Assembly (NCBI RefSeq): GCF_002906255.1 | Contig: NZ_POTC01000005.1 | Span: 49,841 to 113,840, forward strand | Direction of reading: 5' to 3' | DNA length: 64,000 nucleotides | Source of the DNA: Novacetimonas maltaceti | Lineage (GTDB): Bacteria > Pseudomonadota > Alphaproteobacteria > Acetobacterales > Acetobacteraceae | In this document: positions 2,800-27,755 of the stretch, one piece after another | Numbering within the stretch: position 1 is the first letter of the stretch | How the letters are laid out: each line of letters starts with the position of its first letter | Program-made: the position numbers and the translations under genes | Notes under the pieces: model-generated | Told to the model about the DNA's origin: nothing | Databases searched by the model: none | The model's input: the letters and a program-made list of their open reading frames with translations, nothing else

Positions 2800-3547
2800 G
2801 GGGTCATGGGTCCACAGTCATCAACAGATCAGGAAATAACGGCGTATCGGACATCAGGACCTGACAGGACACCCCCATACGGGAGGGGCCATGCAACGGG
2901 GGCAGGCCTGCTGGTTACCGAAACATTATTTCAGGGCGGTTCAGGGAATACCGCATCACCCCTGCCTTGGGACGGCGATATTCAGGATATTCATGCTATC
3001 TTGTTGTATACTACTTTCATACGTTTCTAAAAATGAAGTATACATGCAAATACAAGGCCATAGGATACCTGTCTTGTGTTTCACGATTTATTAATGAAAT
3101 TACGAGAGTGTTGCAAGGGTAAAGATACATATCTGATGCAATTAAATTGGCCCGCGGCCATTCCAGACCCGGCATGCCAACTGGGCCAGGCTTTCATTTT
3201 CCCCTATGATTTCAATGACATGCCAATATATTTAATCAAACATACCAGCCAGTGTCCTTCCTGTCCGGCTTCCCTGAAGATCACTTCAGTTTTTGTTTAA
3301 ATTGCGACTTCCTCGCCCTGTTTTGCACATATTTTGTACACTGCGGAACAGTTTGCGTCATGATTTCATGGATTGGTACCCGATACATAAGAATAATATC
3401 CTATATATTCATCAATATTTCCACTTTACCTGCTTCCGCTTGCAGGAATTAAATCCTACGCATGACAGGGATGCGCCATGCTCGAAACCTCATGCCCCGC
3501 CATGAAGCCCGTCATGGCGGAACAGCTGATTAAAAGTACGTAACCTT
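2800..3547. other. Long AT-rich intergenic region without a supported gene
   Basis: About 750 bp between the phosphodiesterase gene and the cytochrome b561 gene. From about 2980 to 3460 the composition is much richer in A+T than the flanking genes. Short open frames of 66-74 codons occur on the plus strand (for example 3076-3300 and 3252-3452), but they overlap each other in different frames, lack ribosome-binding sites and look like no known protein. It probably holds the promoter of the phosphodiesterase gene and perhaps decayed sequence. Confidence 0.5.
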
Positions 3548-4126
3548 TTACCCGGCCTGCCTGCGCGATGGCAGCATCCGCTGCAGTACCCCGTCATGGC
3601 AGATGACGGCATGGTATATGGCGGCCACCGCATGGAACGCCGCGACCACGATCAGGCCCCAGGCCAGCCAGTGATGGCACTGCCCGAAAATCCGCTGCAC
3701 GCCGACGCCCATGTCCGCAAAGGGCGAATTGATCGGCACGCCGAATGCCACGACCGGCCGCCCCCGTGACCAGCGGAGCATGTAGCCCAACGCGATTTCC
3801 GCGCCCAGCATGACATACAGGAGCCAGTGCACCAGTCGCGCCAGGTGGTCGAGGGGGGTGCGCACGGGAAAGCGGATGGCCCGTCCCCCCGTCACCGCCC
3901 AGACGATGCGCGTCAGGAAGGTCGCGGCCAGCAGCACCCCGACCGAGGTGTGCGTCATGATCATCGCCACCCGCACCTCGGTGCCACGCGGCATGAAGCC
4001 CCATGTTTCACCGAACGCGAACTGCACCAGCACCATCACCGCCGTCAGCCAGTGCAGCCACCGTGTCTCCACACTGTAGCGGACGGGAAGCGGCCCCCCG
4101 GCGGGGGACACAGGGGATACGGGCAT
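3548..4126 (-). CDS. Cytochrome b561 family membrane protein
   Basis: 192 residues with four hydrophobic helices (about 28-48, 57-80, 97-118 and 150-176). Histidines sit where b561 proteins hold two b hemes: RWLHWL in helix 1, MTHTS in helix 2, ARLVHWLLY in helix 3, and HHWLAWG...FHAVAAIYH in helix 4. Family members (CybB, YceJ) transfer electrons between the quinol pool and periplasmic acceptors. The gene ends the 4541-to-3548 run: it starts 8 bp after the stop of the small secreted protein gene at 4134, so the two may be cotranscribed. No electron-transfer partner gene is adjacent. Confidence 0.8.
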   Translation of the reverse strand: MPVSPVSPAGGPLPVRYSVETRWLHWLTAVMVLVQFAFGETWGFMPRGTEVRVAMIMTHTSVGVLLAATFLTRIVWAVTGGRAIRFPVRTPLDHLARLVHWLLYVMLGAEIALGYMLRWSRGRPVVAFGVPINSPFADMGVGVQRIFGQCHHWLAWGLIVVAAFHAVAAIYHAVICHDGVLQRMLPSRRQAG

Positions 4127-4133
4127 CCGGACC

Positions 4134-4541
4134 TCAGTTCATGCCGGGTGCCGCGGAGCTATCCACGCCGCCGACATTCATGTTGCTGAATGTGCCGCCA
4201 TCGGGCGATCCCATGCCGGGCACGGCCTCGCTGGAGCCACCGGGGATCGTGCTCTGCGACTGGATGCCGCCGCCATCACCATACCGGTCGGCTGGCATGA
4301 TGCCGTCCCCCGTGCCCATCCCGGCCTCGGACGAATTGTACTGCGATGCGCCGCCGGCCGTCGGGCCGTAATTGTCAAGGCGGCTGTCACCGCTGTACCC
4401 GCCCCCGTACTGGCTGCCGCCATAGGTCGCGCCACCTGCGGGCGGGCGCGCCTGCGCCATGTCCACGGCACCCGCCATTCCCGCAACCAGCAGGCCCGCC
4501 GCCAGCACGCGCCACCGTGGGGTCTTCTCATATCCGGCCAT
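4134..4541 (-). CDS. Small Gly/Ser-rich secreted protein, unknown function
   Basis: 135 residues from the ATG at 4541, chosen because a GGAGG motif lies about 6 nt upstream; an ATG two codons earlier directly abuts that motif, and one at 4574 is further off. An N-terminal signal peptide (basic YEKTPRWR, hydrophobic LAAGLLVAGMAGA, cleavage near AQA-RP) is followed by low-complexity sequence rich in Gly, Ser, Tyr and Asn (TYGGSQYGGGYSGDS, NSSEAGMGTGDG) with no recognisable domain. It is probably an exported or surface-exposed disordered protein. It lies just upstream of the cytochrome b561 gene. Confidence 0.6.
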   Translation of the reverse strand: MAGYEKTPRWRVLAAGLLVAGMAGAVDMAQARPPAGGATYGGSQYGGGYSGDSRLDNYGPTAGGASQYNSSEAGMGTGDGIMPADRYGDGGGIQSQSTIPGGSSEAVPGMGSPDGGTFSNMNVGGVDSSAAPGMN

Positions 4542-4979
4542 CGTCATCCTCCGCTCGTCATTCCTGCATGCCATCGCGTCACCTGCCCGGTTTGCGGGCC
4601 ATGCGCGACAGGTTCGTCCGTGTGGTACACACGATAGCGCCGTCAGGGGTTAATATCCAACAACTCCCCCATGCGGGGATGGCACATATGCGTGCCCCGC
4701 CGGGACATGCGGAAGAAAGGAAACGCCCCGCCCGACACCCCGTCCCTGCCGCCCCCAAAGCGTGGCGGCCCTGTAATTCCACGATTTGCATCCTCCGCCC
4801 GCCGCGATGCGAACGGCATGCGCTCCCCTCCCCGCCACCCACGCCCCGCAGCAGACGCGACCGAGCCATACCGTGGCCGGACGGCTGCCGCCGGGGCCGG
4901 TTGCACCGCCGGGACAGGAAGCGCACAGTCGGTCCCGCCGTCTTCATGGCTGGATATCGCACGCAAGCGGAGATTACCG

Positions 4980-13472: not shown

Positions 13473-13548
13473 GTCCCGTTCGTCTAGAGGCCTAGGACAC
13501 CGCCCTTTCACGGCGGCAACACGGGTTCGAATCCCGTACGGGACGCCA
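13473..13548 (+). tRNA. tRNA-Glu (UUC), integration site of the mobile element
   Basis: A cloverleaf is readable: acceptor GTCCCGT/ACGGGAC, anticodon stem CCGCC/GGCGG around CTTTCAC (anticodon TTC, Glu), T-arm CGGG-TTCGAAT-CCCG, discriminator G and an encoded CCA. The 3' 49 nt (from 13500) recur at 27558-27606, so this is the attachment gene of the ~14-kb element to its right. The copy at 13473 is complete and should be functional. Confidence 0.96.
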
Positions 13549-13708
13549 GCTACTTTACCGCAGTTTACTGCGGGTCTTGGCTGATTACAGGCACTTTCCT
13601 GATTTCCAATTAGTTGGACTTTGAGCCAATCCTGAGCCAAACGGGTTTCCGTCACTCAGGGATGGCTCAGTGATATCAGGGCTTTTCCAAAGCGAATCAC
13701 AAAAGACG
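13500..13708 (+). repeat. Left attachment-site direct repeat (attL), 209 bp
   Basis: Starts in the tRNA-Glu anticodon stem and continues past the CCA through the integrase upstream region into its first 13 codons. It matches 27558-27755 with an 11-bp deletion and a few substitutions. Within it, TGAGCCA occurs at 13622-13628 and 13633-13639 and inverted (TGGCTCA) at 13663-13669; these are candidate integrase arm-type sites. Confidence 0.88.
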
Positions 13709-14773
13709 AATATCGACCCCACTACGGGCAGAGCGCTGCCAAAAGGCGTCTGGTATCGTGGCCCCAGCCAGTACCAAGCCCGGAAGATGGTGGACGGCAA
13801 ACGTATCCGCAAAACATTCGCCTCAGCCGCTTTGGCTCGACGTTGGCTCAATGAAAAACGGGCCGAGATCGATCTGGGCCAGTTTCGTGATACCTCCGCC
13901 ATCGACCGCATCCCGATCCGTCAGTTGATCGAACGCTATCGGGATGAGTGCATGCTCCACAGGGAGAATGACCGCATCGGTCATATCCCTGCCCTCCTTG
14001 ATGATCCTGTAGCATCCTGCATGGCAGGCAAATGGAAACCTGCTGACGTACGTGGATTTCGTGACCGGATGATTGAGACGGGCTTTGCGAAAGGCACGGT
14101 CGTCAAGCGCCTCAACCTACTCGCGAGCATCATTCGCCACGCAGTGTCCGAGTGGGATATCCACATGGACAACAATGCCTCTGCCAAGATCGTCAAACGT
14201 CCGGAAGGCGCGGATAAAAAACGCAATCGCCGCCTGGTCGGGAAAGAATACGACCTGATCCTGGAAGCCATGTCCAAGACGGAATATCCCGATGATGTCC
14301 TGATTGTGCGCTTTGCAATCGAACAGGGCACACGTCGGGGAGAAGCCATGGCTCTGCGCTGGTGTGATGTTGACATGAAGCGCAACCTGCTCAGCCTGCA
14401 ACAAACGAAGAACATGCGAACCGCCAAGGTACAGGGGCCGGAAATCCGTCCCCTCATGCCCGGTGCAAAATCGATCCTGCTGGAAAAGCTGGCGATGCGG
14501 TCATCCGTTCCTGATCCTGAGGCGCATGTATTTTATGTGGGATCAGAAGACTCATTTTCCCTTCGGTTCGGACGGCAGATAAAAAAATTCGGAGTTCATG
14601 ACCTGACGTTCCATGACCTCCGCCATGAAGCGACATCCCGCCTCGCAAAACTGTTTCCCAACCCAATGGACCTCAAGCGGATCACGGGCCACCGCGACTT
14701 GAAATCATTGGATCGGTATTACCAGCCTGACCTTTCCGATCTGGCTGATCGAGCCGCAAAACAGACCCGCTGA
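13670..14773 (+). CDS. int: Tyrosine recombinase (site-specific integrase of the tRNA-Glu element)
   Basis: 367 residues from a GTG at 13670; an in-frame stop lies close upstream. The N-terminal arm- and core-binding region (about 20-180) includes 'WYRGPSQYQARKMVDGKR'. The catalytic domain shows the R-H-R-H-Y set: TRRGEAMALRW (Arg I), FHDLRHEATSR (His-x-x-Arg), ITGHRDLKSLDRYY (His and the nucleophilic Tyr). It lies immediately inside the tRNA boundary, as for many tRNA-targeting integrases, and should catalyse insertion and excision between the 49-nt tRNA-derived cores at 13500 and 27558. Confidence 0.93.
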   Translation: MISGLFQSESQKTNIDPTTGRALPKGVWYRGPSQYQARKMVDGKRIRKTFASAALARRWLNEKRAEIDLGQFRDTSAIDRIPIRQLIERYRDECMLHRENDRIGHIPALLDDPVASCMAGKWKPADVRGFRDRMIETGFAKGTVVKRLNLLASIIRHAVSEWDIHMDNNASAKIVKRPEGADKKRNRRLVGKEYDLILEAMSKTEYPDDVLIVRFAIEQGTRRGEAMALRWCDVDMKRNLLSLQQTKNMRTAKVQGPEIRPLMPGAKSILLEKLAMRSSVPDPEAHVFYVGSEDSFSLRFGRQIKKFGVHDLTFHDLRHEATSRLAKLFPNPMDLKRITGHRDLKSLDRYYQPDLSDLADRAAKQTR

Positions 14774-14805: not shown

Positions 14806-16527
14806 TCATATTTCAATGTCCGAAATCCCGTTCTTTGGTTGCCTTGACCGTTTAGGCGACGGTTGTGGGGCTGGACTGGTAGATATTCGTTCCCCGTAAT
14901 CCGATTTTTGTGCCCCAGTGACGCCTTGCCGCTTCATTTCCCGTATAGCGGCAGATGGGTCTTTCAGCGCCATCTCCATAAGGCGGCTGTCGGGAACGTC
15001 ATGAAGCCTGTTTTGAAGCTGGCGAAGATCAGTCCTGAAAGCCTCATACGCCTGGACATTGGGATGCCGTTCCCATTCCCGATGCTTCCTACGTTCCTGC
15101 CTCTGTATGGCTTGCGCCACTTGCGTCATCGCCGCTGGCAGGCCTTCACGGATGACGGTAGCGGCATTCATATCATGAGCGTCAAAGCCCGACGCCTTCA
15201 GCGCTGCATCCAACTGCCGCCGGCGTAAAATCCGCCATGGGTTCAGGAAGCCCCACTCATCCGCCTTCCGGTATGCCGTGTATGCGCTGGTGATTTTAGA
15301 CTCGCATTCCGCTGCAATCTCGTCGATGGCCCTGATCTGTGGCGCTGGTGGCAGGACCGCCTGCCTTGATGCCAACAGTTCATCAATCATACGGCAGAAA
15401 TCCCTGTAAAATTTCTTCTGCTCGGCTAGTTGCTGGGTGCTCGCATCTGCCTGCGCCTTGGCACGCTCCGCCGTCGCAATTTCCGCACGCCGGAATTCCT
15501 CTGACTTGCCTTGCAGGTTCAGCGTCATGGTGGAGATGATCTGCTCACGGACCGGGTCAAGCCAATGCCCTTTTGATGATGGGGTAACCGGTGTGGTTTT
15601 TCTCTGCCTGCCAAGCGTTTCAGCCTGATTGCTTCCTGATGATGATCGCGTCACCTTCTCGGGCAGTTGTTTCCCGGAAGATGGGCCGGACACTTTGGGA
15701 GTGATGCCATCGGGCAACATACGCCATGCCAGTTCCGCTTTTTTCATTCCCAGTAGCCTGCACAGGGAACCCAGCATCCGGCCTTCACCGTCCGTCAGTA
15801 TGATAACGTCCGGTTTTCGTGTCCCCGGCCCGACGCGCCATCCCCGCTCCTCAATGGCGGTGCGAAAGGCTTTCCAACCATCTGACTGGGACCAGAGTGT
15901 CCGGACTTCCTGCCGGATCGCAGCCCTGTCTACACCGAGTCGTTTGCCGGTTTCCTTGGCCGTCGCGGTATAGGCATGTCCATCCAGACCGCCTTGGGCC
16001 AAACTAGTCAGACGGTCCCGGATCGTCGGGTCGGTAATGGCTTGCAGAACGGCCCGGTTGTGTCGTCCTTTCAGCAGGCGCAGGCCGTTCTTCACCTCGA
16101 AAATGCGTTCGATCTTTTCCTGTCGCGCGTAACTGTGCGACATGTCCATGACGCGGCCATTCTCCGGATTCACCATCTGCACCAGAAGATGAAAATGCTG
16201 ATTCCAGCTTTCCCCATCATGGCGGCTTTTCTGGTGGCGGACACACAGCTTCACGTCGTCACGTGAAAAGCCGAATTCGTCGCCAATCGTCGCAATGGCA
16301 TCCCGGACCTGCCGTGGGTCCAGTTTTTCCTGACTGGCAAGGATGAAGTGGGCCACCGCGTTCTTCCGGCCAAAATCACGGGCGTCATCGAACGCCATTC
16401 TTACATCCGCCCGTGATCCCCGGATCAGGTGGATGACTTCATTTTCATCGGGCTTGTCCAGAAGGTGGCAGACAATTTGGGTCATGCTGCGTGCGGTTGC
16501 CCGGATGCGCGTTGACTTGATGATCAT
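14806..16527 (-). CDS. Relaxase (MOBP/VirD2-like mobilization protein)
   Basis: 573 residues. The N-terminal nickase domain (about 1-200) has the metal-binding histidine motif in WNQHFHLLVQMVNPENGR and an upstream 'RHQKSRHDGESWN'; the nucleophilic Tyr cannot be assigned safely. The remainder (about 200-573) includes 'GERGWRVGPGTRKPDVIILTDGEG'-like sequence, charged regions likely to be coiled coil (320-450), and a basic tail. It would nick oriT and pilot single-stranded DNA into a transfer apparatus supplied in trans; no conjugation machinery is present. It begins 1 bp after the mobC stop codon, so the two are coupled. Confidence 0.85.
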   Translation of the reverse strand: MIIKSTRIRATARSMTQIVCHLLDKPDENEVIHLIRGSRADVRMAFDDARDFGRKNAVAHFILASQEKLDPRQVRDAIATIGDEFGFSRDDVKLCVRHQKSRHDGESWNQHFHLLVQMVNPENGRVMDMSHSYARQEKIERIFEVKNGLRLLKGRHNRAVLQAITDPTIRDRLTSLAQGGLDGHAYTATAKETGKRLGVDRAAIRQEVRTLWSQSDGWKAFRTAIEERGWRVGPGTRKPDVIILTDGEGRMLGSLCRLLGMKKAELAWRMLPDGITPKVSGPSSGKQLPEKVTRSSSGSNQAETLGRQRKTTPVTPSSKGHWLDPVREQIISTMTLNLQGKSEEFRRAEIATAERAKAQADASTQQLAEQKKFYRDFCRMIDELLASRQAVLPPAPQIRAIDEIAAECESKITSAYTAYRKADEWGFLNPWRILRRRQLDAALKASGFDAHDMNAATVIREGLPAAMTQVAQAIQRQERRKHREWERHPNVQAYEAFRTDLRQLQNRLHDVPDSRLMEMALKDPSAAIREMKRQGVTGAQKSDYGERISTSPAPQPSPKRSRQPKNGISDIEI

Positions 16528-17881: not shown

Positions 17882-19729
17882 ATGAGCATAACACCCCGCA
17901 CGACCTCCCTGTCCTCCATGATCTGGCAGGTAGCTGATCTTCTACGCGGGGATTTCAGACCCGCAGAATATGGGCGCGTCATTCTGCCTTTCACCGTCCT
18001 CCGCCGCCTCGACGCCGTGTTGATCCCCACTCGGGACAAAGTGCTCAAGGAAAAGGCGAAGTGGGAAAGCAAAGGCATCGATCCGATGCCGTTCATGGAA
18101 AAAGCCGCCGGTTTGAAATTCGTGAACACGTCTGACTTTACCCTGAAAGACGTGCTGGGCGACCCGGACAACCTGACCCAGAACCTTTCTGCCTACATCA
18201 ATGCCTTTTCGCCTGCCGCGCGCGACATCTTCGATCATTTCCGCTTCACCGAGCAGACAGACCGCCTGGCAAAGGCCAATCTGCTCTATCTGGTTCTGGA
18301 AAAATTCGTAAGCTTCGACCTCAGCGACAAGGCTGTCGATAACCACCAGATGGGGCAGGTGTTCGAGGAACTGATCCGCAAGTTCTCTGAAGCCTCCAAT
18401 GAAACGGCGGGGGAGCACTTCACCCCGCGCGAAGTCATCAAGCTGATGGTGAACCTGATTTTTGCCGAGGATGACGACCTGCTGACCCCCGGCAACCCGG
18501 CCGTGCGCACCATCTATGACCCGACGGCTGGCACCGGCGGCATGCTCTCGGTTGCGGAAGAATTCCTGCTGGATCATAACCCGGATGCACGCCTGACCAT
18601 GTTCGGACAGGAACTGAACCCGGAATCCTATGCCATCTGCAAGGCCGACATGCTGATCCGCAATCAGGATGTCAGCAATATCCGCCTTGGCAATACGCTT
18701 TCTGATGACGAACTGGCGGATTACAAATTCGACTACATGCTTTCCAATCCGCCTTTCGGCGTGGAATGGAAGAAGGTTGAGAAAGCCGTTCGGGCCGAGC
18801 ATGAAAAGCTGCGTTATGATGGCCGCTTCGGTCCCGGCCTGCCCCGTATCTCGGACGGTTCCATGCTGTTCCTGCTCCATCTCGTGCATAAGATGCGTCC
18901 TGCAAAGGATGGCGGCGCGCGCTTTGGTATTGTCCTGAACGGCTCGCCCCTGTTCACCGGCGCTGCTGGCTCCGGTGAATCTGAAATTCGGCGTTTCGTG
19001 CTGGAAGAAGATCTGGTGGAAGCCATCATCGCGCTGCCGACCGACATGTTCTTCAACACCGGCATCGCCACCTATGTCTGGGTGCTGACCAACCGCAAGC
19101 CGAAGAACCGCAAGGGCAAGGTGCAGTTGATCGACGCATCTTCCTTCTGGCAGAAAATGCGCAAAAGCCTTGGCTCCAAGCGCAAGGAAATGGGGGAGGA
19201 TGACATTACGCTTGTCACCCGCCTGTTCCGCAATGCGCAGGACGCACAACTTGCCACCATCACCACCGCCGATGGCACGCAGACGCGCGAAGTCGTGGCC
19301 AAGGGTGCGGAACCGCCCGCCCCCCCCGAAGGCGGTAAGGTCAGGCTCGCCCCGCTGAGCCGTATCTTCCGCAATGAAGATTTTGGCTATCAGACCATCA
19401 CGGTGGAGCGCCCGCAGCGTGATGAGGATGGCAATATCGTCCTCGGCCAGCGCGGCAAGACGAAGGGCAAGCCCATGCCCGACAGCAGCCTGCGCGATAC
19501 GGAAAACGTGCCGCTGAATGAGGACATTCACGCCTACTTCAAGCGCGAAGTCCTGCCCCATACCCCGGATGCGTGGATTGACGAGGACAAGACAAAGATC
19601 GGCTACGAAATTCCGTTTAACCGGTATTTCTATGTGTTTGAGCCGCCGCGTCCGCTTGCGGAGATTAATGCCGATCTGAAAGAGGTGACCGCGAAAATAA
19701 TGATGATGCTTGGGGAGCTTTCGGCATGA
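17882..19729 (+). CDS. hsdM: Type I restriction-modification DNA methyltransferase subunit
   Basis: 615 residues. An N-terminal HsdM helical domain (about 8-160) precedes an adenine-N6 methyltransferase: SAM-binding DPTAGTGGMLSVAEEF and catalytic NPPFGVEWKK, with 'SDGSMLFLLHLVHKM' beyond. A C-terminal region of about 150 residues rich in charged stretches ends in MMMLGELSA. It methylates the host recognition sequence and with HsdS forms the protective enzyme. First gene of a tightly packed operon hsdM-hsdS-GIY-YIG-hsdR in which each junction overlaps by 4 bp (ATGA). Confidence 0.96.
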   Translation: MSITPRTTSLSSMIWQVADLLRGDFRPAEYGRVILPFTVLRRLDAVLIPTRDKVLKEKAKWESKGIDPMPFMEKAAGLKFVNTSDFTLKDVLGDPDNLTQNLSAYINAFSPAARDIFDHFRFTEQTDRLAKANLLYLVLEKFVSFDLSDKAVDNHQMGQVFEELIRKFSEASNETAGEHFTPREVIKLMVNLIFAEDDDLLTPGNPAVRTIYDPTAGTGGMLSVAEEFLLDHNPDARLTMFGQELNPESYAICKADMLIRNQDVSNIRLGNTLSDDELADYKFDYMLSNPPFGVEWKKVEKAVRAEHEKLRYDGRFGPGLPRISDGSMLFLLHLVHKMRPAKDGGARFGIVLNGSPLFTGAAGSGESEIRRFVLEEDLVEAIIALPTDMFFNTGIATYVWVLTNRKPKNRKGKVQLIDASSFWQKMRKSLGSKRKEMGEDDITLVTRLFRNAQDAQLATITTADGTQTREVVAKGAEPPAPPEGGKVRLAPLSRIFRNEDFGYQTITVERPQRDEDGNIVLGQRGKTKGKPMPDSSLRDTENVPLNEDIHAYFKREVLPHTPDAWIDEDKTKIGYEIPFNRYFYVFEPPRPLAEINADLKEVTAKIMMMLGELSA

Positions 19730-21078
19730 GTTTTCCGAAGTATCCAGCTTATAAGGAGAGTGGGCTTAAGTGGGTTGGAGAGATCCCCACAGGCTGGAAT
19801 TTATCTCAATTGTCTTTTGTATTTGAAAATATTTCTAGCGGGACAACTCCATCTGCCAATAATGATGAATATTATCGTGGGAATATCCCATGGGTAACAA
19901 CAGGAGAATTGCGAGAAGCGGAAATATTCTCTACGGAAAAAAATATTTCTTCAGGAGCGTTAAATGTTTTTTCAGCATTGAAAATCTATCCGCCAGGCAC
20001 CCTTTTAGTTGCAATGTACGGAGCAACAACGGGACGTTTGGGATGGTTGGGAGTAGATGCAACTACAAATCAAGCGTGTTGTGCCTTGGCATATCCCAAA
20101 AATGTTCATTTTAAATTTATATTTTATAGTCTCTTAAACGCGAAAGAAGCTTTGCTTCTACTTTCTTCTGGTGGTGGCCAGCCAAATATCAATCAAGAGA
20201 AAATTAGAAGTTTTCGTATTCCCATTCCCCCACTCCCCGAACAGCAGGCAATAGCCAGCTTTTTGGACCGTGAGTGCGGGAAGATTGACGCCTTGATTGC
20301 CGAACAGGAACGACTGATTGCCCTGCTTGCGGAAAAGCGGCAGGCCGTCATCTCCCACGCCGTCACAAAAGGCCTGAACCCCAACGCCCCCATGAAGGAC
20401 TCAGGTATCCCGTGGATCGGGATGGTGCCGGAAGGGTGGGAAATGATGCGCGTTAAGAATATTCTATTAACAATCGAGCAAGGTTGGAGCCCACAATGCG
20501 AGAACTATCCTCGATCTTCTGATTCCGAATGGGCAGTTTTGAAAGTAGGCTGTGTTAATACGGGTATATTTGATCCATCCGAAAACAAGGTTTTGCCAGA
20601 AACGCTGGATGGCAATGAAAATCTCCAAGTGCGTGCTGGCGATGTCTTGGTTTCGCGAGCAAATACACGTGATCTTGTCGGTCGGTCTGCTGTCGCTGAA
20701 CGCAATTATTCGCGTCTTATGATTTGCGATAAAATATTCAGATTGCGAACAAGGCCGGAATTCTGCCTTCCGGAATATCTAAGTTTTTTTTTGCAATCGT
20801 CCGCTGGTCGTCATGTCATTGAAATTGCTGCTTCTGGAGCCAGTCAATCAATGGTTAATATTGGACAAGGAACTATTTTAGAAATGCTTTTTCCTGTTCC
20901 ACCAGTAGAAATCCAACGTCATATTTTAAAAAATCTAAATTGTAATGACGAAGCAGAATCCATTGGAAATGCCAATCAATTCATTAATTTAGCATATGAA
21001 CGCCGCGCCGCACTCATCTCTGCCGCCGTCACCGGAAAGATTGACGTTCGTAACCAGAACAAGGCCAACGCAGCATGA
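19726..21078 (+). CDS. hsdS: Type I restriction specificity subunit
   Basis: 450 residues with two target-recognition domains in the usual repeat: 'ESGLKWVGEIPTGW' opens TRD1 (about 10-165) and 'DSGIPWIGMVPEGW' opens TRD2 (about 225-400); the conserved helical spacers are 'PLPEQQAIASFLDRECGKIDALIAEQ' (about 168-215) and the shorter C-terminal 'ERRAALISAAVTGKIDVR'. Both TRDs are strikingly AT-rich while the spacers have host-like GC, as expected if TRDs are exchanged between strains. The recognition sequence cannot be predicted. It overlaps hsdM and the next gene by 4 bp. Confidence 0.95.
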   Translation: MSFPKYPAYKESGLKWVGEIPTGWNLSQLSFVFENISSGTTPSANNDEYYRGNIPWVTTGELREAEIFSTEKNISSGALNVFSALKIYPPGTLLVAMYGATTGRLGWLGVDATTNQACCALAYPKNVHFKFIFYSLLNAKEALLLLSSGGGQPNINQEKIRSFRIPIPPLPEQQAIASFLDRECGKIDALIAEQERLIALLAEKRQAVISHAVTKGLNPNAPMKDSGIPWIGMVPEGWEMMRVKNILLTIEQGWSPQCENYPRSSDSEWAVLKVGCVNTGIFDPSENKVLPETLDGNENLQVRAGDVLVSRANTRDLVGRSAVAERNYSRLMICDKIFRLRTRPEFCLPEYLSFFLQSSAGRHVIEIAASGASQSMVNIGQGTILEMLFPVPPVEIQRHILKNLNCNDEAESIGNANQFINLAYERRAALISAAVTGKIDVRNQNKANAA

Positions 21079-22022
21079 TCGACACAAAAGGCCGCTCTCT
21101 GGAACTTTTCTATATCGACGGTCATCCAGACGGTATGGTGACCGCCGAACTGTTCAACTGGACGGGACATGTGTTCGTCACGCCGCGCACGCGTCTGACC
21201 GAGGCACTGCGACGGCAGGAAGCCGGTTATGCAGGTGTATACTTGCTGCTGGGTGAAAAGGACGGGCAGGATTTCGCCTATATCGGGGAAGCCGAGGACC
21301 TCAGCACACGGCTGAAGCAACATGCGGCGGCAACAGACAAGGACTGGTGGGAAACGGCCGTGCTGGTCTCCGCCAGCGCAAACCGGCTCAACAAGGCACA
21401 TGTGAAATATCTGGAAGCGCGGCTGGTCACGATGGCGCGGGAGATCGGGCATACCCCGCTGCATAACGGCAACTCGCCCTCCCTGCCGGGACTGACGGAA
21501 GCCGACATTGCCAAGATGGAAGCCTTCCTTGCCAACCTGATGGTGGTCCTGCCCGCCATCCGGGTGGATATGTTCATCCAGCGCAGTCGCCCGGCGGGGT
21601 CATCGCGACCGGTTCCCGCTTTTGAAGCGCCGGAAGCAGGAACGAACCCTACCACAACGGAGACAGCCCGCTTTTTCCTGCACAAACCACGCATTGACCT
21701 GACGGCAAAAGCCATCTTTCAGGACGGTGAATTTGTTGTCGAGGCAGGGTCCCAGGCCAGGACTGAATGGCACGGGGAAGGCACCTATAAACCGCTGCAT
21801 GAGGAACTGGTACGCTCCGGCATTCTGCAGATGGCTGGCGAACATCGGGTGTTCACCAAGGATTATGCATTCAGAAGCCCAAGTGCGGCGGCTGCCGTCG
21901 TGTTTGGCCATGCCGTTAGTGGGCCTGCTGCATGGAAGCTGGAAGATAACCCGGACATCACATTCCGCGACTGGCAGGCCCAACAGTTGGCGGCCATTCC
22001 TGACGAGGAGGCCGACTCATGA
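21075..22022 (+). CDS. GIY-YIG nuclease-domain protein inside the hsd operon
   Basis: 315 residues. A GIY-YIG core occupies about 50-150: YAGVYLLLGEKDG (GVY) and FAYIGEAEDLSTRLKQHAA (YIG with the following Arg), and a later conserved Glu region 'VKYLEARLV'. The C-terminal third contains 'GEFVVEAGSQARTEWHGEG...YKPLHEELVRSGIL', resembling the DUF4357 module often found with GIY-YIG proteins of restriction loci. It overlaps hsdS and hsdR by 4 bp each, so it is translated as part of the system. Its role is unknown; an accessory nuclease acting on restricted or modified DNA is a reasonable guess. Confidence 0.82.
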   Translation: MIDTKGRSLELFYIDGHPDGMVTAELFNWTGHVFVTPRTRLTEALRRQEAGYAGVYLLLGEKDGQDFAYIGEAEDLSTRLKQHAAATDKDWWETAVLVSASANRLNKAHVKYLEARLVTMAREIGHTPLHNGNSPSLPGLTEADIAKMEAFLANLMVVLPAIRVDMFIQRSRPAGSSRPVPAFEAPEAGTNPTTTETARFFLHKPRIDLTAKAIFQDGEFVVEAGSQARTEWHGEGTYKPLHEELVRSGILQMAGEHRVFTKDYAFRSPSAAAAVVFGHAVSGPAAWKLEDNPDITFRDWQAQQLAAIPDEEADS

Positions 22023-25000
22023 CCGACCTCCACAAGGAACACCATCTGGAATCGGAAATCTGCGACTATCTCGGCCGCTCCGGCTGGCTGTATGAGGAAG
22101 GGTCTGCCAGCCGCTACGACGTCGGCCTGTCCCTGTTCCCCGAAGACCTGCTGGCATGGGTGCGTGAGTGCGAACCGGATGCATGGGAAACACTGGAAAA
22201 GACGCATGGCGCAGCAGCAGGGACCGTGCTGTGCCAGCGTGTGCGCGATGCCCTGAACACGCGCGGCGCGCTGGTTGTCCTGCGTGACGGACTGGACATT
22301 ATCGGGCTGACAAAAACGCTGAAGATCTGCCAGTTCCGCCCGGCGCTGACGATGAATCCGCATTTGCAACATCGCTACAACGCCAATCGCCTGCGCGTAG
22401 TGCGCCAGGTGCGCTATTCAGCCAGCAACGGCAACGAACTGGATCTGGTGCTGTTTCTGAACGGCGTGCCCGTGGCAACGGCGGAACTGAAGTCAAACTA
22501 TACCCAGTCGGTTCAGGATGCGGTGGAGCAGTACTGCACCGACCGTCTGCCCAAGCCACCCGGCAAACCGGCAGAACCATTGCTCTCGGTCCCCGGTGGG
22601 GCAGTGGTGCATTTTGCCATCAGCAACAGCGACGTGATGATGTGCACGCATCTGGAGGGCGCGCACAGCCGTTTTCTGCCGTTCAATCAGGGGAATGATG
22701 GCGGGGCAGGCAATCCCAGCACCACGGCCTATCTGTGGCGCGAAGTCTGGCAGCCGGACTCATGGCTGGATATTCTGGGCCGCTACATCATCCCGGTGAA
22801 GAAAAAGGGGAAGATCACGGGCTGGATCTTTCCCCGCTATCACCAGCTGGCCGCCACACGGCTTCTGGTTGCCACCATTGTGGCGGAAGGTCCGGGCCAG
22901 CGTTACCTGATCCAGCATTCCGCAGGTTCGGGCAAGACGAACTCCATCGCCTGGACGGCGCATTTCCTGTCTGATCTGCATGACCAGCATAATCACAAGA
23001 TGTTCGATACCGTGGTTGTGGTGTCGGACCGGACGGTACTGGACCGGCAGCTTTCGGAAACAATCGAGAGTTTTGAGCGCACGCGCGGCGTGGTGGCCTC
23101 CATTTCCGGCAATAGTGGCAGCAAAAGCCAGGAACTTGCAGAAGCCCTGCATGCGGGCAAGAAAATCATTATCTGCACGATCCAGACCTTTCCCTTCGCG
23201 CTCGAAGAAATCCGCCAGCTTGCGGCGACCGAGGGCAAGCATTTCGCCGTAATCGCGGATGAAGCTCATTCTTCCCAGACTGGCGCATCAGCCAGCAAAC
23301 TGAAGGCGGCCCTTTCAGCGGGAGAACTGGCAGAACTTGCCGATGGCGGGGAGGTCAGCACAGAAGACCTGCTGGCAGCGGAAATGGCACAGCGGCCTGC
23401 TGCGGATATGGGTATTTCCTTTATCGCCTTTACCGCCACGCCAAAGGCCAAGACCCTGGAACTGTTCGGGCGTCTGCCGCACCCCGACCAGCCCAAGGGT
23501 GAGAACAACAAGCCCGAAGCATTCCACATCTATTCCATGCGCCAGGCGATTGAGGAGGGCTTCATCCTTGATGTCTTGCAGAATTATGTATCATGGAAAC
23601 AGGCCTTTCGCCTGAGCCAGAACGGTCAGGTTCTGGATGAGACGGAAGTCGAGGCTTCGGAAGCCAAGAAGGTGCTGATGAAGTGGGTGCGGCTGCACCC
23701 GACCAATATCGCCGCGCGTGTTCAGATCGTGGTGGAGCATTTCCGCCAGAATGTGCAGCCGCTCCTTGGCGGCAAGGCACGGGCCATGGTGGTAACCGCC
23801 AGCCGCAAGGAAGCAGTGCGCTGGAAGCTGGCGATGGATCGCTACGTTAAGGAAAGGCATTATCCGTTCGGGTTGCTGGCTGCGTTCTCGGGTGAGGTCG
23901 ATGACCCGGAAAGTGGCCCGGAGCCATTTACGGAAAGCAACATCAATCCTGCCCTGAAGGGGCGCGACCTGCGGGAGGTTTTTGCCGAAGACCCATGGCG
24001 GATTCTGATCGTGGCCAACAAATTCCAGACCGGGTTCGATCAGCCGTTGCTGTGCGGTATGTATGTGGACCGTAAGTTGGGTGGCATTCAGGCGGTCCAG
24101 ACGCTCTCGCGGCTGAACCGTTGCTATCCCGGCAAGGACATGACCTTCGTTGTGGATTTCGAGAACGACCCCGAAGATATCCTCAAGGCATTCCAGCAAT
24201 ATTACACCAGGGCCGAACTGGCTGACCTCAGTGATCCGAACTGCGTGGTAAACCTGCGCCACAAACTGGATGATGCCGGGTTATACGATCAGCCGGAAGT
24301 TGATCGCGTGGCCCATGTCCTGACACATCCGAAAGCAACGCAGCAGCAGCTTGATGCGGCTATCGTGCCGGTCAACTCGCGCGTGCTGGGCCGGTATCGC
24401 GAAGCCCGGAAAATCTTTCAGGACGAACCGGAAGGTTCGCATGAACGGCAGGAGGCAAAGGAACGGATTGATGGCCTGATCCAGTTCCGGAGCGATCTGG
24501 CATCCTATATGCGGATGTACGAGTTCTTCAGCCAGATGCTGAATTACGGCAATCCGGATTATGAAAAGCTATATCTTTTTGCAAAAATGCTCTGGCCACT
24601 GCTGAAATTCGACCGTGAGCGCGAGACGGTCGATACAACCACCCTGCGCCTGACGCATCATCGTATGAAGGATCTTGGCAAGCAGAAGCTTGGGCTCAAG
24701 AACGAAGCCGGAGAGGGGCTGGAACCAATAAAAGAGGCCGGTTCAGGGCTACCGCAGGACAAGGCGAAGGTTCAACTTTCTCGTATTATCGAAGCCATCA
24801 ATGATCTGTTCGAAGGTGATCTGACGGACGGAGACAAGGTGGCATTTGTTACGGGACTGGAAACCAAACTGGCAGAATCGGAAAAATTGCGCGAACAGGC
24901 TCAGGCCAATACCAAGGATCAGTTCGCCAATTCACCTGATCTCCAGGAAGAAGGGATGAATGCGACCATCGAGTTGATGGACGCACATGAGAAGATGGGC

Positions 25001-25090
25001 AAACAGATGCTCAATGATAATGCCCTACTGCGCACAGTTATTGCCGCCATCGTAAAACAGGGGGGGTTATGGGAGGGATTGCAGGGATAG
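22019..25090 (+). CDS. hsdR: Type I restriction endonuclease/translocase subunit
   Basis: 1023 residues. The N-terminal PD-(D/E)xK nuclease shows ELDLVLFLNGVPVATAELK (about 140-158). The superfamily 2 motor follows: Walker A QHSAGSGKTNSIAW, DEAH in 'VIADEAHSSQTGAS', motif III FTATPKAKTLELF, and helicase motifs in 'VANKFQTGFDQPLL' and 'LSRLNRCYPGKD'. The C-terminal helical region (about 780-1023) should contact HsdM. Length is in the normal range. All key motifs are intact, so the R-M system is probably active. It ends 50 bp before the convergent reverse transcriptase gene. Confidence 0.96.
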   Translation: MTDLHKEHHLESEICDYLGRSGWLYEEGSASRYDVGLSLFPEDLLAWVRECEPDAWETLEKTHGAAAGTVLCQRVRDALNTRGALVVLRDGLDIIGLTKTLKICQFRPALTMNPHLQHRYNANRLRVVRQVRYSASNGNELDLVLFLNGVPVATAELKSNYTQSVQDAVEQYCTDRLPKPPGKPAEPLLSVPGGAVVHFAISNSDVMMCTHLEGAHSRFLPFNQGNDGGAGNPSTTAYLWREVWQPDSWLDILGRYIIPVKKKGKITGWIFPRYHQLAATRLLVATIVAEGPGQRYLIQHSAGSGKTNSIAWTAHFLSDLHDQHNHKMFDTVVVVSDRTVLDRQLSETIESFERTRGVVASISGNSGSKSQELAEALHAGKKIIICTIQTFPFALEEIRQLAATEGKHFAVIADEAHSSQTGASASKLKAALSAGELAELADGGEVSTEDLLAAEMAQRPAADMGISFIAFTATPKAKTLELFGRLPHPDQPKGENNKPEAFHIYSMRQAIEEGFILDVLQNYVSWKQAFRLSQNGQVLDETEVEASEAKKVLMKWVRLHPTNIAARVQIVVEHFRQNVQPLLGGKARAMVVTASRKEAVRWKLAMDRYVKERHYPFGLLAAFSGEVDDPESGPEPFTESNINPALKGRDLREVFAEDPWRILIVANKFQTGFDQPLLCGMYVDRKLGGIQAVQTLSRLNRCYPGKDMTFVVDFENDPEDILKAFQQYYTRAELADLSDPNCVVNLRHKLDDAGLYDQPEVDRVAHVLTHPKATQQQLDAAIVPVNSRVLGRYREARKIFQDEPEGSHERQEAKERIDGLIQFRSDLASYMRMYEFFSQMLNYGNPDYEKLYLFAKMLWPLLKFDRERETVDTTTLRLTHHRMKDLGKQKLGLKNEAGEGLEPIKEAGSGLPQDKAKVQLSRIIEAINDLFEGDLTDGDKVAFVTGLETKLAESEKLREQAQANTKDQFANSPDLQEEGMNATIELMDAHEKMGKQMLNDNALLRTVIAAIVKQGGLWEGLQG

Positions 25091-25140: not shown

Positions 25141-26346
25141 TTAAGGAAGCATAAGGAACTTACGATATTGATTTGAAATATTTTGAACGGAATCGCGTCC
25201 AAAAATTGTTCCATAAAGAACATTGGCACATTTTTGTACTGCTTGATCCAATTGATTTTTTAAATCCTTACTGTTTGAAGCATAATCATATGCAGATAAA
25301 TATCCATTTTTCATAAAATTTATTCTTCTCAATACATACCCAATATCTTTATTTTGTGATATTAACCATGAAATGTCATGATATTCTGAAATGGATTTCT
25401 TTATCTCCCTTATTTGCTCAGGAGACACATAAAAATAACATTCCCCATTCTCCTGCCTAGCCAATGCCATACCAAGAAAATCTACTGGTTGTGATGGAGA
25501 ATATATATGACTCTTTTCTTCACTCAATTCATGACCAATAATTTTTAATTCTTCTTCAACTTTTTTCCGTGCTTCTATACATTGAGATTCGGTGTCAGTG
25601 AAAATAAGTAGGTCATCCGCATAGCGCACCATTGAGTATTGCGCTCCAACAACTCTATCAAAATCTTTTAAAACAAAATTGCTTAGTATGGGAGATAACG
25701 GCATCCCTTGTCGAAGGCCTCTCCCTCTCTGAATGCCATTCTGAATAGTGGCTTTTCGGATTTTTTCACTACTTTCAGCGACTTCGCACTGGATTGCACC
25801 CAAAACCAAGGGTGTCAACGATCTTAATTTAAATTGACGCGAAAATTTTTCAGCTAATTCTTTACGATTAATGCGGTCAAAAAATTTAGCTATATCTGCT
25901 TTAAAAACCCACGGCTTTTTCTCACGAAGCGCACAGGCAGCTTTTTGCGCCCCTCTAACGCCACGGTTCTGATTTTCTGTGTTTCTTATAAAGCCATAAC
26001 TGACAGGATTAATAAGTCCCAATTTTTCCGCCTGCTCCTCGATTTTATTGACGAGGGCACGCTGCACTATCCGATCAGATAACGTAGGAATACAGATTAA
26101 TCTCAATTTTGTAGGATCAGTTTTGGGTATTGCTACCCCCCGCAACAGACTAAATTTATATCCGTCACGAATATTACTTTGAATTTCACGCAGACGATTC
26201 ATACGTTCATTTTTGAAAGTAGTAGCAGATACCCCATCAACCCCAGGAGTAGTCTTCGCCCCTCTTTTTCTCCAAATTTGCTTCCACGCGAATTCAAGTC
26301 TGGAGAGAGATGCCAATTCTTGGCGAGCTGACTGACTCAAAATCAC
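25141..26346 (-). CDS. Reverse transcriptase (group II-like/defence-associated class), free-standing
   Basis: 401 residues starting at a GTG at 26346 (a stop codon lies three codons upstream; TTG at 26340 is an alternative). RT motifs: RT0/1 'TTPGVDGVSATTF' (32-44), RT2 'LRLICIPTLSDRIVQRAL', RT3 'FKADIAKFFDRI' with Asp151, RT4 'GRGLRQGMPLSPILSNFVL' (209-226), RT5 'YSMVRYADDLLIF' with YADD 242-245, and RT7 'VDFLGMALA'. A short thumb-like tail follows; no HNH endonuclease and no retron-type signature is visible. The DNA is much richer in A+T than its surroundings. A structured, repeated region lies directly upstream, as in DRT-type antiphage RT systems; a defence role is inferred. Confidence 0.88.
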   Translation of the reverse strand: MILSQSARQELASLSRLEFAWKQIWRKRGAKTTPGVDGVSATTFKNERMNRLREIQSNIRDGYKFSLLRGVAIPKTDPTKLRLICIPTLSDRIVQRALVNKIEEQAEKLGLINPVSYGFIRNTENQNRGVRGAQKAACALREKKPWVFKADIAKFFDRINRKELAEKFSRQFKLRSLTPLVLGAIQCEVAESSEKIRKATIQNGIQRGRGLRQGMPLSPILSNFVLKDFDRVVGAQYSMVRYADDLLIFTDTESQCIEARKKVEEELKIIGHELSEEKSHIYSPSQPVDFLGMALARQENGECYFYVSPEQIREIKKSISEYHDISWLISQNKDIGYVLRRINFMKNGYLSAYDYASNSKDLKNQLDQAVQKCANVLYGTIFGRDSVQNISNQYRKFLMLP

Positions 26347-26370
26347 TTCCCATCAAAAGGAAAGGGCACT

Positions 26371-26406
26371 GCCTCGCTTGCTTCATATAGCCCCAGCAAG
26401 CGAGGC
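26371..26406 (-). other. Perfect 12-bp stem-loop just upstream of the RT start
   Basis: On the plus strand GCCTCGCTTGCT (26371-26382) and AGCAAGCGAGGC (26395-26406) are exact complements around a 12-nt loop; the stem ends 25 bp before the RT start codon. In the direction of RT transcription it would close the 3' end of the candidate ncRNA. Confidence 0.8.
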
Positions 26407-26411
26407 GACTG

Positions 26412-26519
26412 CTGCCAGATGGTTTTCGACCATCATTGACCACGGACGCCTTGCCATCAGACTGGCGAGACGGATCGGCTTTGCCGTTTCTGGCGCTTCC
26501 ACATCCGCTAACCTCGGCA
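26412..26519 (-). repeat. 108-bp direct repeat upstream of RT, proximal copy
   Basis: Identical to 26766-26873 except for one base (A at 26442 versus T at 26796 on the plus strand). The spacing of the copies is exactly 354 bp. The module folds into three consecutive short hairpins. Confidence 0.9.
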
Positions 26520-26602
26520 TCCTTCCCGGTAACAGAATTCCAGCTAAGTTCGGCTGTCATCCCACCACTCGTGGTTGGCGCAAGACCATTCGCCCCCAAT
26601 GT

Positions 26603-26631
26603 AATATACCCCAAGAAGGCGGCAAGTACAA
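26603..26631 (-). promoter_or_regulatory. Possible sigma-70 promoter for the RT-linked ncRNA
   Basis: On the minus strand TTGTAC (26631-26626) and TATATT (26608-26603) are separated by 17 nt. The -10 matches the consensus at 5 of 6 positions, the -35 at 3 of 6. It points at the structured region and the RT gene. Confidence 0.4.
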
Positions 26632-26765
26632 GCCCAAATCGACGATGCCTACCAGACACCCTATGGGTTCCCCGCGCCCTGATCCTGTGCCCGTGCATAT
26701 GCTTACCAGCTCCTTTTTGACCGACTGTTAAATCGGAGGGCTTCAGGAGCTTGCGATTAACCCGT

Positions 26766-26873
26766 CTGCCAGATGGTTTTCGACCATCATTGACCTCGGA
26801 CGCCTTGCCATCAGACTGGCGAGACGGATCGGCTTTGCCGTTTCTGGCGCTTCCACATCCGCTAACCTCGGCA
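26766..26873 (-). repeat. 108-bp direct repeat upstream of RT, distal copy
   Basis: Second copy of the three-hairpin module, 107/108 identical to 26412-26519. The 246 bp between the copies contain the candidate promoter and are not repeated. From here to the HTH gene (26874-27030) no gene is seen; the sequence becomes AT-rich near 26945-27040. Confidence 0.9.
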
Positions 26874-27030
26874 ATCTTCAAACTAAGCCATCGCCACATA
26901 CGACGGAATCAGACCAAGAGGTCCATAGCCGACTAAACGTCAGTGCCACAGTTAGATCAAAAACAAAAGAAAAAACTGGAAATTGTGTATGCTGCCTTGG
27001 TTAATCACATAACCTTAGACGCATGGCATG

Positions 27031-27366
27031 CTAAGAAAAAATAAACCTAATCAGCATTGCGAATAGCGTCATGCCGCCAAGCAGCACCAATGTAGCCAAC
27101 ATACCGACGCCGCGACGTCTGGGCCGTGGCGCACGCTTCCGTGCAGGTTGTGGGGCAGACTGAATACCAGCTTTCTGATCCAGCCAGGCATCGAGATCAG
27201 TGATTCGGAACCTTACGTCGCGGGTCCCATATGTGACAGACCGGGGCCCTCGGCCCATCCATTTCAAATTCCGCAACCGACCCGGACTGATGCCCAGATA
27301 TTCTGCCGCCTGCACGTATGTCAGGACAGCGGGCCTCATACCTTCAGGAAGTTCGGACGCCATCAC
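27031..27366 (-). CDS. AlpA/excisionase-like HTH protein with C-terminal membrane segment
   Basis: 111 residues. The N-terminal winged-helix of the excisionase/HTH_17 type covers about 14-64: 'YVQAAEYLGISPGRLRNLKW', then 'GPRSVTYGTRDVRFRITDLDAWLD'. A basic linker (ARKRAPRPRRR) leads to one hydrophobic helix at the C-terminus (about 88-111, MLATLVLLGGMTLFAMLIRFIF). Proteins of this HTH type act as excisionases or integrase regulators; the place beside the right attachment site supports that. A membrane tail on such a protein is unusual. The start follows the ATG-ATG pair at 27366/27363. Confidence 0.72.
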   Translation of the reverse strand: MMASELPEGMRPAVLTYVQAAEYLGISPGRLRNLKWMGRGPRSVTYGTRDVRFRITDLDAWLDQKAGIQSAPQPARKRAPRPRRRGVGMLATLVLLGGMTLFAMLIRFIFS

Positions 27367-27557: not shown

Positions 27558-27755
27558 CCGCCCTTTCACGGCGGCAACACGGGTTCGAATCCCGTACGGG
27601 ACGCCAGCTACTTTACCGCAGTTTACTGCGGGTCTTGGCTGATTACAGGCACTTTCTTGATTTCCAATCAGTTGGACTTTGAGCCGAACGGGTTTCCGTC
27701 ACTCAGGGATGGCTCAGTGATATCAGGGCTTTTCCAAAGCGAATCACAAAAGACG
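27558..27755 (+). repeat. Right attachment-site direct repeat (attR) running into a dead integrase
   Basis: 198 bp matching 13500-13708. The first 49 bp (27558-27606) are the 3' end of tRNA-Glu including CCA; the rest repeats the integrase leader and its first codons (ISGLFQSESQKT) and then diverges at 27756. One 11-bp TGAGCCA unit is missing compared with the left copy. The part from 27718 on is a relic of a second, truncated integrase gene. Confidence 0.88.

Follow-up and report, generated by a model that had tools for sequence, protein, structure and literature searches.

A long repeat pair upstream of a free-standing reverse transcriptase in Novacetimonas maltaceti, a candidate template for an endless gene

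Among the described reverse transcriptase systems, DRT2 and DRT10 are the closest to the locus considered here. In the accessible text on DRT2 (PMC11100668), a promoter forms across repeat junctions, the 120-bp unit corresponds to 40 sense codons, a 3-nt ACA jump is described, and the neo frame runs antisense to its non-coding RNA (ncRNA); as far as the accessible parts of the literature covered go, DRT2 is the only system shown to build a gene absent from the genome. The accessible text on DRT10 (PMC12632851) describes an A-B-A' template in which A spans 2-4 nt, a 9-nt repeat in Eco3DRT10, and a need for SLATT. The locus analysed here lies in a stretch of 64,000 nucleotides of Novacetimonas maltaceti (contig NZ_POTC01000005.1, hereafter the window) and comprises a free-standing reverse transcriptase (RT) gene with a duplicated element, written A-B-A', directly upstream. 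Such an A-B-A' repeat architecture upstream of an RT was not found described in the accessible parts of the open-licence PMC literature.

Our preferred reading, to which we assign a probability of roughly 0.55, is that A-B-A' would act as an RNA template copied into head-to-tail (A-B)n complementary DNA (cDNA), forming an endless gene for a repetitive, usually hydrophobic and probably phage-arresting protein. A-B would be the unit and A' its terminal repeat, and the frame data point to a concatemer-encoded protein following a DRT2-like logic. In the sense of the RT the order is A, B, A', hairpin SL2 and RT, with the following features.

26766 to 26879, minus strand: copy A, the upstream repeat, from repeat comparison
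26526 to 26765, minus strand: spacer B, 240 nt, sharing the open sense frame of A and A'
26412 to 26525, minus strand: copy A', the downstream repeat, from repeat comparison
26371 to 26406, minus strand: hairpin SL2, a perfect 12-bp stem with the 12-nt loop GGGGCTATATGA, directly 3' of A'
26526 to 26879, minus strand: unit A-B, 354 nt or 118 codons, with one sense frame stop-free around the join (an endless open reading frame, ORF)
26294 to 26899, minus strand: chromosomal form of the endless frame, a 201-aa ORF through A-B-A' into the RT start
26582 to 26638, minus strand: hydrophobic stretch of 19 residues, FGLVLAAFLGYITLGANGL, mean Kyte-Doolittle value 1.66, a putative membrane helix
26696 to 26714, minus strand: candidate translation start in B, AGGAGCT at 26714-26708 and ATG at 26698-26696, upstream of the hydrophobic stretch
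26603 to 26631, minus strand: candidate promoter P2, TTGTAC-N17-TATATT, within B and 3' of the candidate start
26932 to 26960, minus strand: weak promoter-like site upstream of A, TTGATC-N17-TTTAGT (p 0.63, not significant)
25141 to 26340, minus strand: reverse transcriptase with YADD, 399 aa from TTG 26340 or 401 aa from a GTG start at 26346

The two 114-nt copies mismatch at positions 5, 6 and 84 only and are thus identical at 107 of 108 sites over positions 7-114, in agreement with the duplicated module of a first-pass annotation made from the sequence alone. That annotation had also described the module as hairpin-rich, with a perfect 12-bp stem-loop before the start codon; both descriptions hold, the minimum free energy (MFE) fold of A' with SL2 containing several hairpins, and SL2 lying 24 nt before GTG 26346 and 30 nt before TTG 26340 (longest-stem shuffle, p 0.002 in the window). 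Its promoter-like pair TTGTAC-N17-TATATT is present at 26631-26603, but lies between the copies and is only mildly unusual (p 0.04). Absent from it were the endless frame and the A-to-A' spacing of 354 nt, or 3 x 118. The 684 bases upstream of the RT match a single place in the genome, and a protein search for homologues of the window A-B-A' ORF returned only itself.

The longest ORF of the RT runs from 26346 to 25141 on the minus strand and encodes 401 aa with a YADD motif, although TTG 26340, the start kept among relatives, is more likely than GTG 26346. RVT_1 is the sole Pfam match at E <= 0.01, and GIIM and HNH domains were not found at this threshold, in agreement with the lack of a maturase endonuclease described at first pass. 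No Rfam match at the RT locus reached its gathering score. The Drt2 RT model NF041746 gave 48.4 bits for the window RT and 41.6-54.0 bits for six relatives, below its cutoff of 390, and the retron St85 model gave 75 bits against a cutoff of 235, msr/msd having been searched for through Rfam only. The NCBIfam model group_II_RT_mat gave 188 bits, below its cutoff of 300, the PADLOC general RT model PDLC01136 gave 173 bits and the UG17 model 129 bits. PDLC01136 was also the top-scoring model in nine relatives, with UG17 (115-152 bits) below it in all 10 proteins scanned. Because GIIM-bearing maturases score in an overlapping range (143-177 bits in 4 of 7 such RTs, the other three falling short of E 1e-40), UG17 scores are unspecific for this family; a search of 150 genomes for a UG17 outgroup returned matches of 140-179 bits only, none of them certain. 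The predicted RT structure has a mean predicted local distance difference test (pLDDT) score of 90.6, and its nearest folds are the group II intron RT GsI-IIC and G2L4 RTs.

A protein search with the window RT found 2327 relatives at E <= 1e-3, the best 120 of which were inspected. A tree of 71 RTs groups 28 family members in a single clade with support 100/98, recovered in 99% of 200 bootstrap trees. Outside it stand 42 other RTs, including GIIM-bearing group II RTs and RTs of loci with repeats of the type seen in diversity-generating retroelements (DGRs), and the remaining row, gL107, is a long-branched sister of the clade. GIIM was found in 7 of 9 scanned non-family rows, and the tree contains no G2L4 row and no confirmed UG17 row. 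The family thus falls outside the group II maturases and DGR-type RTs tested, a placement on which the first-pass annotation had made its reading depend. It is also scarce, with members in 3 of the 395 genomes drawn for the order, 3 of the 397 for the taxonomic family, 1 of the 398 for the phylum (at E 1e-60) and, at a looser setting, 7 of the 385 for the class, four of these being weak matches of about 160 bits; all draws include the window's own genome. Relatives occur on plasmids and on IMG/VR viral contigs. A Gluconacetobacter entanii RT copy (L002, L004, positions 1-250) is 97% identical to the window RT; its frame is interrupted, and its 5' end is cut beside what we read as a transposase-like frame.

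Recurrence in relatives carries most of the argument. Relatives are cited by locus numbers and the window locus as WIN. Twelve distinct family loci with upstream sequence were counted (WIN, L003, L006/7, L008/9/23, L012, L014, L018, L020, L021, L022, L025 and L109). Duplicates were dropped, namely L017/L026/L084 (of L012), L019/L034/L085 (of L014), L027/L086 (of L013), L075 (of L018), L103 (of L003 by position), L104 (of L109), L107 (of L112), L024 (of L025) and L001/L010/L011/L123 (of the window), as were L002/L004, L005 and L013, whose upstream region is cut too near the RT start; the plasmid twin CP119240 stands outside the counts. A repeat pair lies directly upstream of the RT in 8 of the 12 loci, with the RT outside the pair in all eight, an arrangement that speaks against an LTR-like element. 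The repeats measure 114-150 nt, are 96.8-100% identical within each locus, and are spaced at 354 nt in WIN, 375 in L003, 399 in L008/L009/L023, 453 in L012, 381 in L014, 378 in L020, 387 in L021 and 452 in L018. Seven of these eight have a spacing divisible by 3 and an RT-sense frame that is stop-free around the joined unit; the exception is L018, with a 452-nt unit and an RT broken in many places. In L021 the RT has a frame break and the unit is intact. Eight distinct loci have an unbroken RT (WIN, L003, L006, L008, L012, L014, L020 and L109), and the pair is absent from two of them, L006 and L109, as well as from L022 and L025, whose RTs are fragments.

The repeat sequences themselves differ among loci. 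The window element has no DNA match in L002-L009 or L012-L016, its sole similarity there being a 20-nt chance match in L014 (E 0.31), and the endless peptide of WIN aligns with those of other loci at pairwise scores of 22-50; the resembling pairs are L012/L018 and L020/L021. Under a dinucleotide shuffle, with 1/3 per locus for spacing and independence assumed, the joint chance for the seven loci is about 5e-20. The L020 and L021 peptides align best in the endless frame, at 185 against 22-125. Controls comprised 57 further RT loci, including the family fragment L025 and a few near-copies, and 16 more, scanned by the same procedure over a segment of the RT strand reaching 3500 nt ahead of the match and 2500 or 3500 nt past it. 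Among the pairs listed, up to four per locus for the 57 and up to three for the 16, none combined a position close upstream with a circular sense frame free of stops; many of these loci have pairs, mostly with N>A mismatches as in DGR repeats. Open units do occur at other positions: L054 has a 57-nt tandem repeat located 3' of its RT, and L096 an 84-nt one 2.6 kb upstream. Two further loci, L015 and L016, were dropped as added cases, their repeats showing DGR-type mismatches. The first-pass idea of an RT-ncRNA system therefore stands insofar as a free-standing RT with a structured, duplicated upstream element recurs in relatives, but the module is not merely a template present twice.

The best-surviving rival, which we nevertheless consider unlikely, is an ordinary gene in which B and A' encode a small membrane protein effector and A is a second ncRNA body, with no concatemer. 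It draws on start codons in B that precede the hydrophobic stretch and follow purine-rich sequence, on stops 0-115 nt past A', and on gene callers that list such Acinetobacter proteins, P0122 with its start in A and P0124 with its start in B. A start in B, however, leaves A and early B untranslated, yet the spacing and open frame hold in 7 of 7 loci; against this null (start in B, run through A'), with start codons chosen by us and that of L012 weak, the joint chance of multiple-of-3 spacing and an open early B is 1.5e-7. A start in A is impossible in L014 with ATG, GTG or TTG, since the frame lacks all three up to B+80, and a stop is found no more than 3 nt from the start of A; in L020, there are stops immediately outside both copies. 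On these grounds the frame from A into B looks useless unless another unit precedes A. In the other loci an in-frame start codon does occur within A or shortly before it, though no ribosome site is obvious there, and gene callers have adopted one of these for P0122; the no-start argument is therefore strongest in L014.

The position of P2 also speaks against an ordinary gene. P2-type sites lie in B, 3' of the candidate start, in four loci, with shuffle p values of 0.04 in WIN (mononucleotide shuffle), 0 of 300 in L003, 0.07 in L020 and 0.04 in L021. Being downstream of the start, P2 could serve the endless frame from there only in head-to-tail units. Promoter-like sites 20-43 nt upstream of A in L008, L012, L014, L018, L020 and L021 (p 0.03-0.05 in L014, L020 and L021) are consistent with a transcript starting near A.

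Under the concatemer reading, a single transcript from upstream of A would carry A-B-A'-SL2. The RT would bind A' with SL2, begin in or near A' and copy B and then A, after which the cDNA end, the complement of A, would re-pair with A' for the next round; this re-pairing is proposed by analogy with DRT10 and telomerase, which do so with few nucleotides. Second-strand synthesis would yield duplex concatemers, in which the P2 of one B would drive expression of the following unit's frame together with its hydrophobic segment, which P2 cannot reach in a single chromosomal unit. The stopless product would then act at the membrane and halt the cell.

The predicted product agrees with such a role in most loci. 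The best 19-residue Kyte-Doolittle means, with residue-shuffle p values, are 1.66 (0.003) in WIN, 2.22 (0.03) in L003, 2.17 (0.10) in L008, 1.39 (0.24) in L012, 1.81 (0.04) in L014, 2.68 (0.02) in L020 and 2.05 (0.01) in L021. A 19-mer with a mean of at least 1.6 thus occurs in 6 of 7 units, and in 5 of 7 loci no other of the six frames is as hydrophobic as the endless one. Graded by these means and p values, a membrane role appears likely in most loci and doubtful in L012. A search with the L020 ORF returned 10 proteins including itself. In P0125-P0127 the A peptide recurs with a unit of 128 codons. P0130 and P0131, encoded on metagenome contigs of 3529 and 523 bp, run in the order B-A-B expected of joined units and may be either captured concatemers or loops introduced by assembly. 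Between L012 and L018, A has hardly changed (4/145), against 77 differing sites among about 308 in B, many of them close to the hydrophobic stretch, possibly reflecting rapid diversification of the product.

In the Acinetobacter loci L020 and L021 the A-encoded peptide has closely spaced cysteines (CSHCC...CAC, CYCC), a spacing that we take to resemble a small zinc-binding motif.

Several observations weigh against the concatemer reading. The proposal as a whole is built on sequence, its RNA, cDNA, protein and phage-defence steps being predicted, and within the genus the A-B-A' element occurs in 1 of 4 genomes, namely the window's own. Two of the eight unbroken-RT loci, L006/L007 and L109, have a single A-like element; A/A' recombination could have left just one there, or alternatively the pair could be dispensable. 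L014 is GC-rich; that a sense frame is open comes as no surprise there (P 0.44), and two of its antisense frames likewise lack stops. Substitutions between L012 and L018 in B spread evenly over codon positions (27/23/27), giving no sign of coding constraint there, and between L020 and L021 the ratio of nonsynonymous to synonymous substitution rates (dN/dS) is about 0.55, but with dS high. The sister RT L107/L112 has a pair with a 346-nt unit that is not a multiple of 3 and contains stops. The hydrophobic stretch of L012 is weak (1.39), hydrophobic clustering is not significant in L008 and L012, and another frame is more hydrophobic in L012 and L021. Assembly loops would deprive P0130 and P0131 of their weight, an option raised by the short contigs, the first with an odd end. 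Since gene callers start the Acinetobacter protein P0122 inside A, A may be translated from the chromosome there. P2 is weak or absent in L008, L012 and L014, and for a promoter-like site upstream of A the window, L003, L008, L012 and L018 all fall short of significance.

Two of these loci merit description in their own right. L109 (G943, about 3279-4517) has an RT with YVDD, one A-like element and a strong TTGACA-N17-TATGTT promoter-like site; it either arose by deletion or represents a simpler version of the system. L112 (L107) has, on the reverse strand at 486-959 with the RT behind, a 128-nt pair (96.9%) directly upstream of a 432-aa RT with YIDD; its joined unit would yield a different protein ending at a stop.

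As to RNA structure, each of the 10 loci checked has a hairpin separating its A-like element from the RT. The longest stem measures 7-12 bp, and in L008 the MFE fold gives a different hairpin. A stem-loop before the RT, as in the first-pass annotation, recurs in these homologous loci. By the longest-stem test the hairpin is significant only in WIN (0.002) and L014 (0.038) of 8 loci, and its pairing is kept through sequence changes in L012/L018 and L020/L021. RNA pairing of the start region in B was considered and found unsupported, mean pairing being 0.56-0.82 against 0.61-0.70 overall. The repeat copies of the L012/L018 pair lie as follows.

4353 to 4497 and 4806 to 4950: the two repeat copies in L012
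3372 to 3516 and 3824 to 3968: the two repeat copies in L018

Four substitutions separate A of L012 from A of L018, two of them shared by A', and by this comparison copies A and A' are evolving together in part. Position 54, G versus C between A and A', is retained in both L012 and L018 despite homogenisation.

This partial co-evolution also suits the next rival, a circle route that we regard as quite improbable, in which the RT makes linear A-B-A' cDNA whose terminal repeats recombine or anneal to a 354-bp circle that is endlessly transcribed. Near identity over 114-150 nt exceeds the realignment need given in the accessible reports (2-4 nt for DRT10, PMC12632851; 3 nt for DRT2, PMC11100668) and suits recombination, but the route requires host recombination on very short DNA, and the circles are conjectural. 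Slightly worse placed, and in our view very unlikely, is a DRT10/DRT9-like system in which a lone A'+SL2 ncRNA templates a short repeat or homopolymer and the second A is incidental. In its favour, L006 and L109 combine an unbroken RT with a lone A-like element preceded by a strong promoter-like site, and the size is comparable to the 137-nt DRT10 ncRNA in the accessible text of PMC12632851. Against it, pairs recur with different sequence and a conserved frame, no SLATT was found in the neighbours scanned, and UG17 scores of 115-152 overlap the 143-177 of maturases (4 of 7). A degenerate group II intron, or a chance duplication beside a cargo RT, is highly improbable: the predicted fold is nearest to group II and G2L4 RTs, but the absence of GIIM, of any Rfam match at gathering score and of a place in their clade led us to reject group II intron identity, and the architecture is recurrent. 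A DGR with a template repeat (TR) and a variable repeat (VR) has a next to negligible chance, and this identity was rejected on mismatch pattern and tree: two similar repeats do lie near the RT, but only 3 of 13 ungapped A/A' mismatches are N>A (WIN, L003, L008, L012, L014 and L021; the gapped L020 excluded), whereas those of control DGR-type loci are mostly N>A among the pairs listed, and the RT clade is apart from theirs.

The RT locus lies near one end of a 14-kb integrative island bounded by a 128-nt direct repeat (98.4%) at 13500-13627 and 27558-27685, which consists of a tRNA-Glu 3' end and flank. The type I restriction-modification (R-M) genes are on the far side of the RT from A-B-A', followed by relaxase and integrase, and this bears out the mobile element next to type I R-M recognised at first pass. 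Together with the plasmids and viral contigs of relatives, this setting counts, as context, in favour of a possible defence role.

13670 to 14773: integrase, within the island
14806 to 16527: relaxase, within the island
17882 to 25090: type I R-M (HsdM, HsdS, HsdR), between integrase/relaxase and RT
27031 to 27366: HTH_17 gene, the only gene after the RT system within the island

No SLATT Pfam match was found in the window neighbours or in 9 scanned proteins near relatives, a scan that did not include every neighbour. L003 lies among metabolic genes by our reading of its ORFs.

As a broader and more tentative claim, held at a little under even odds, the family may represent a new class of RT immunity in which the enzyme relies on long terminal repeats instead of microhomology to build an endless gene from RNA, one encoding a multi-pass membrane protein. 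De novo gene synthesis would then have a second case besides DRT2, one that arose independently or diverged deeply, in a group II-like clade outside the named DRT families. If so, endless-gene synthesis would be a recurring immune strategy, found in a second RT clade with another template architecture and tied to membrane effectors, in a compact system carried on islands, plasmids and viral contigs whose long repeats may drive template switching. An upstream repeat pair, multiple-of-3 spacing and an open circular frame would together provide a rule for scanning RT loci for hidden genes.

Compared with known systems, as far as their accessible descriptions go, the locus shares with DRT2 a lone RT with an upstream structured element, a predicted head-to-tail cDNA, a unit that is a multiple of 3 with an endless ORF (here a potential in 7 of 8 pair loci), and a promoter, here the candidate P2, that would serve the entire ORF only once units are joined. 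It differs from DRT2 in an RT scoring 42-54 bits against the Drt2 cutoff of 390, in a unit of 354-453 nt rather than 120 bp, in repeats of 114-150 nt rather than ACA motifs, in a frame in the RT sense where neo is antisense to its ncRNA, and in an often hydrophobic predicted product where Neo is a predicted alpha-solenoid. With DRT10 it shares the A-B-A' template logic, but the A of DRT10 spans 2-4 nt in an ncRNA of about 137 nt, against repeats of 114-150 nt at 354-453 nt spacing here, and DRT10 needs SLATT and makes a short DNA repeat, not a gene; UG17 membership of the present RT would rest on unspecific profile scores. DGRs likewise have two similar repeats of about 110 nt near the RT, whereas here there are no adenine-specific mismatches, the repeats share one frame with an open spacer, and the RT belongs to another clade. 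We know of no A-B-A' element in G2L4 or group II-like domesticated RTs. These are similarly free-standing and close in predicted RT fold (accessible text of PMC12337344), but the present family is a sequence clade apart from the GIIM-bearing group II RTs in the tree. By anatomy, the RT family appears to be a mixture of DRT2 and DRT10 and is assigned to neither.

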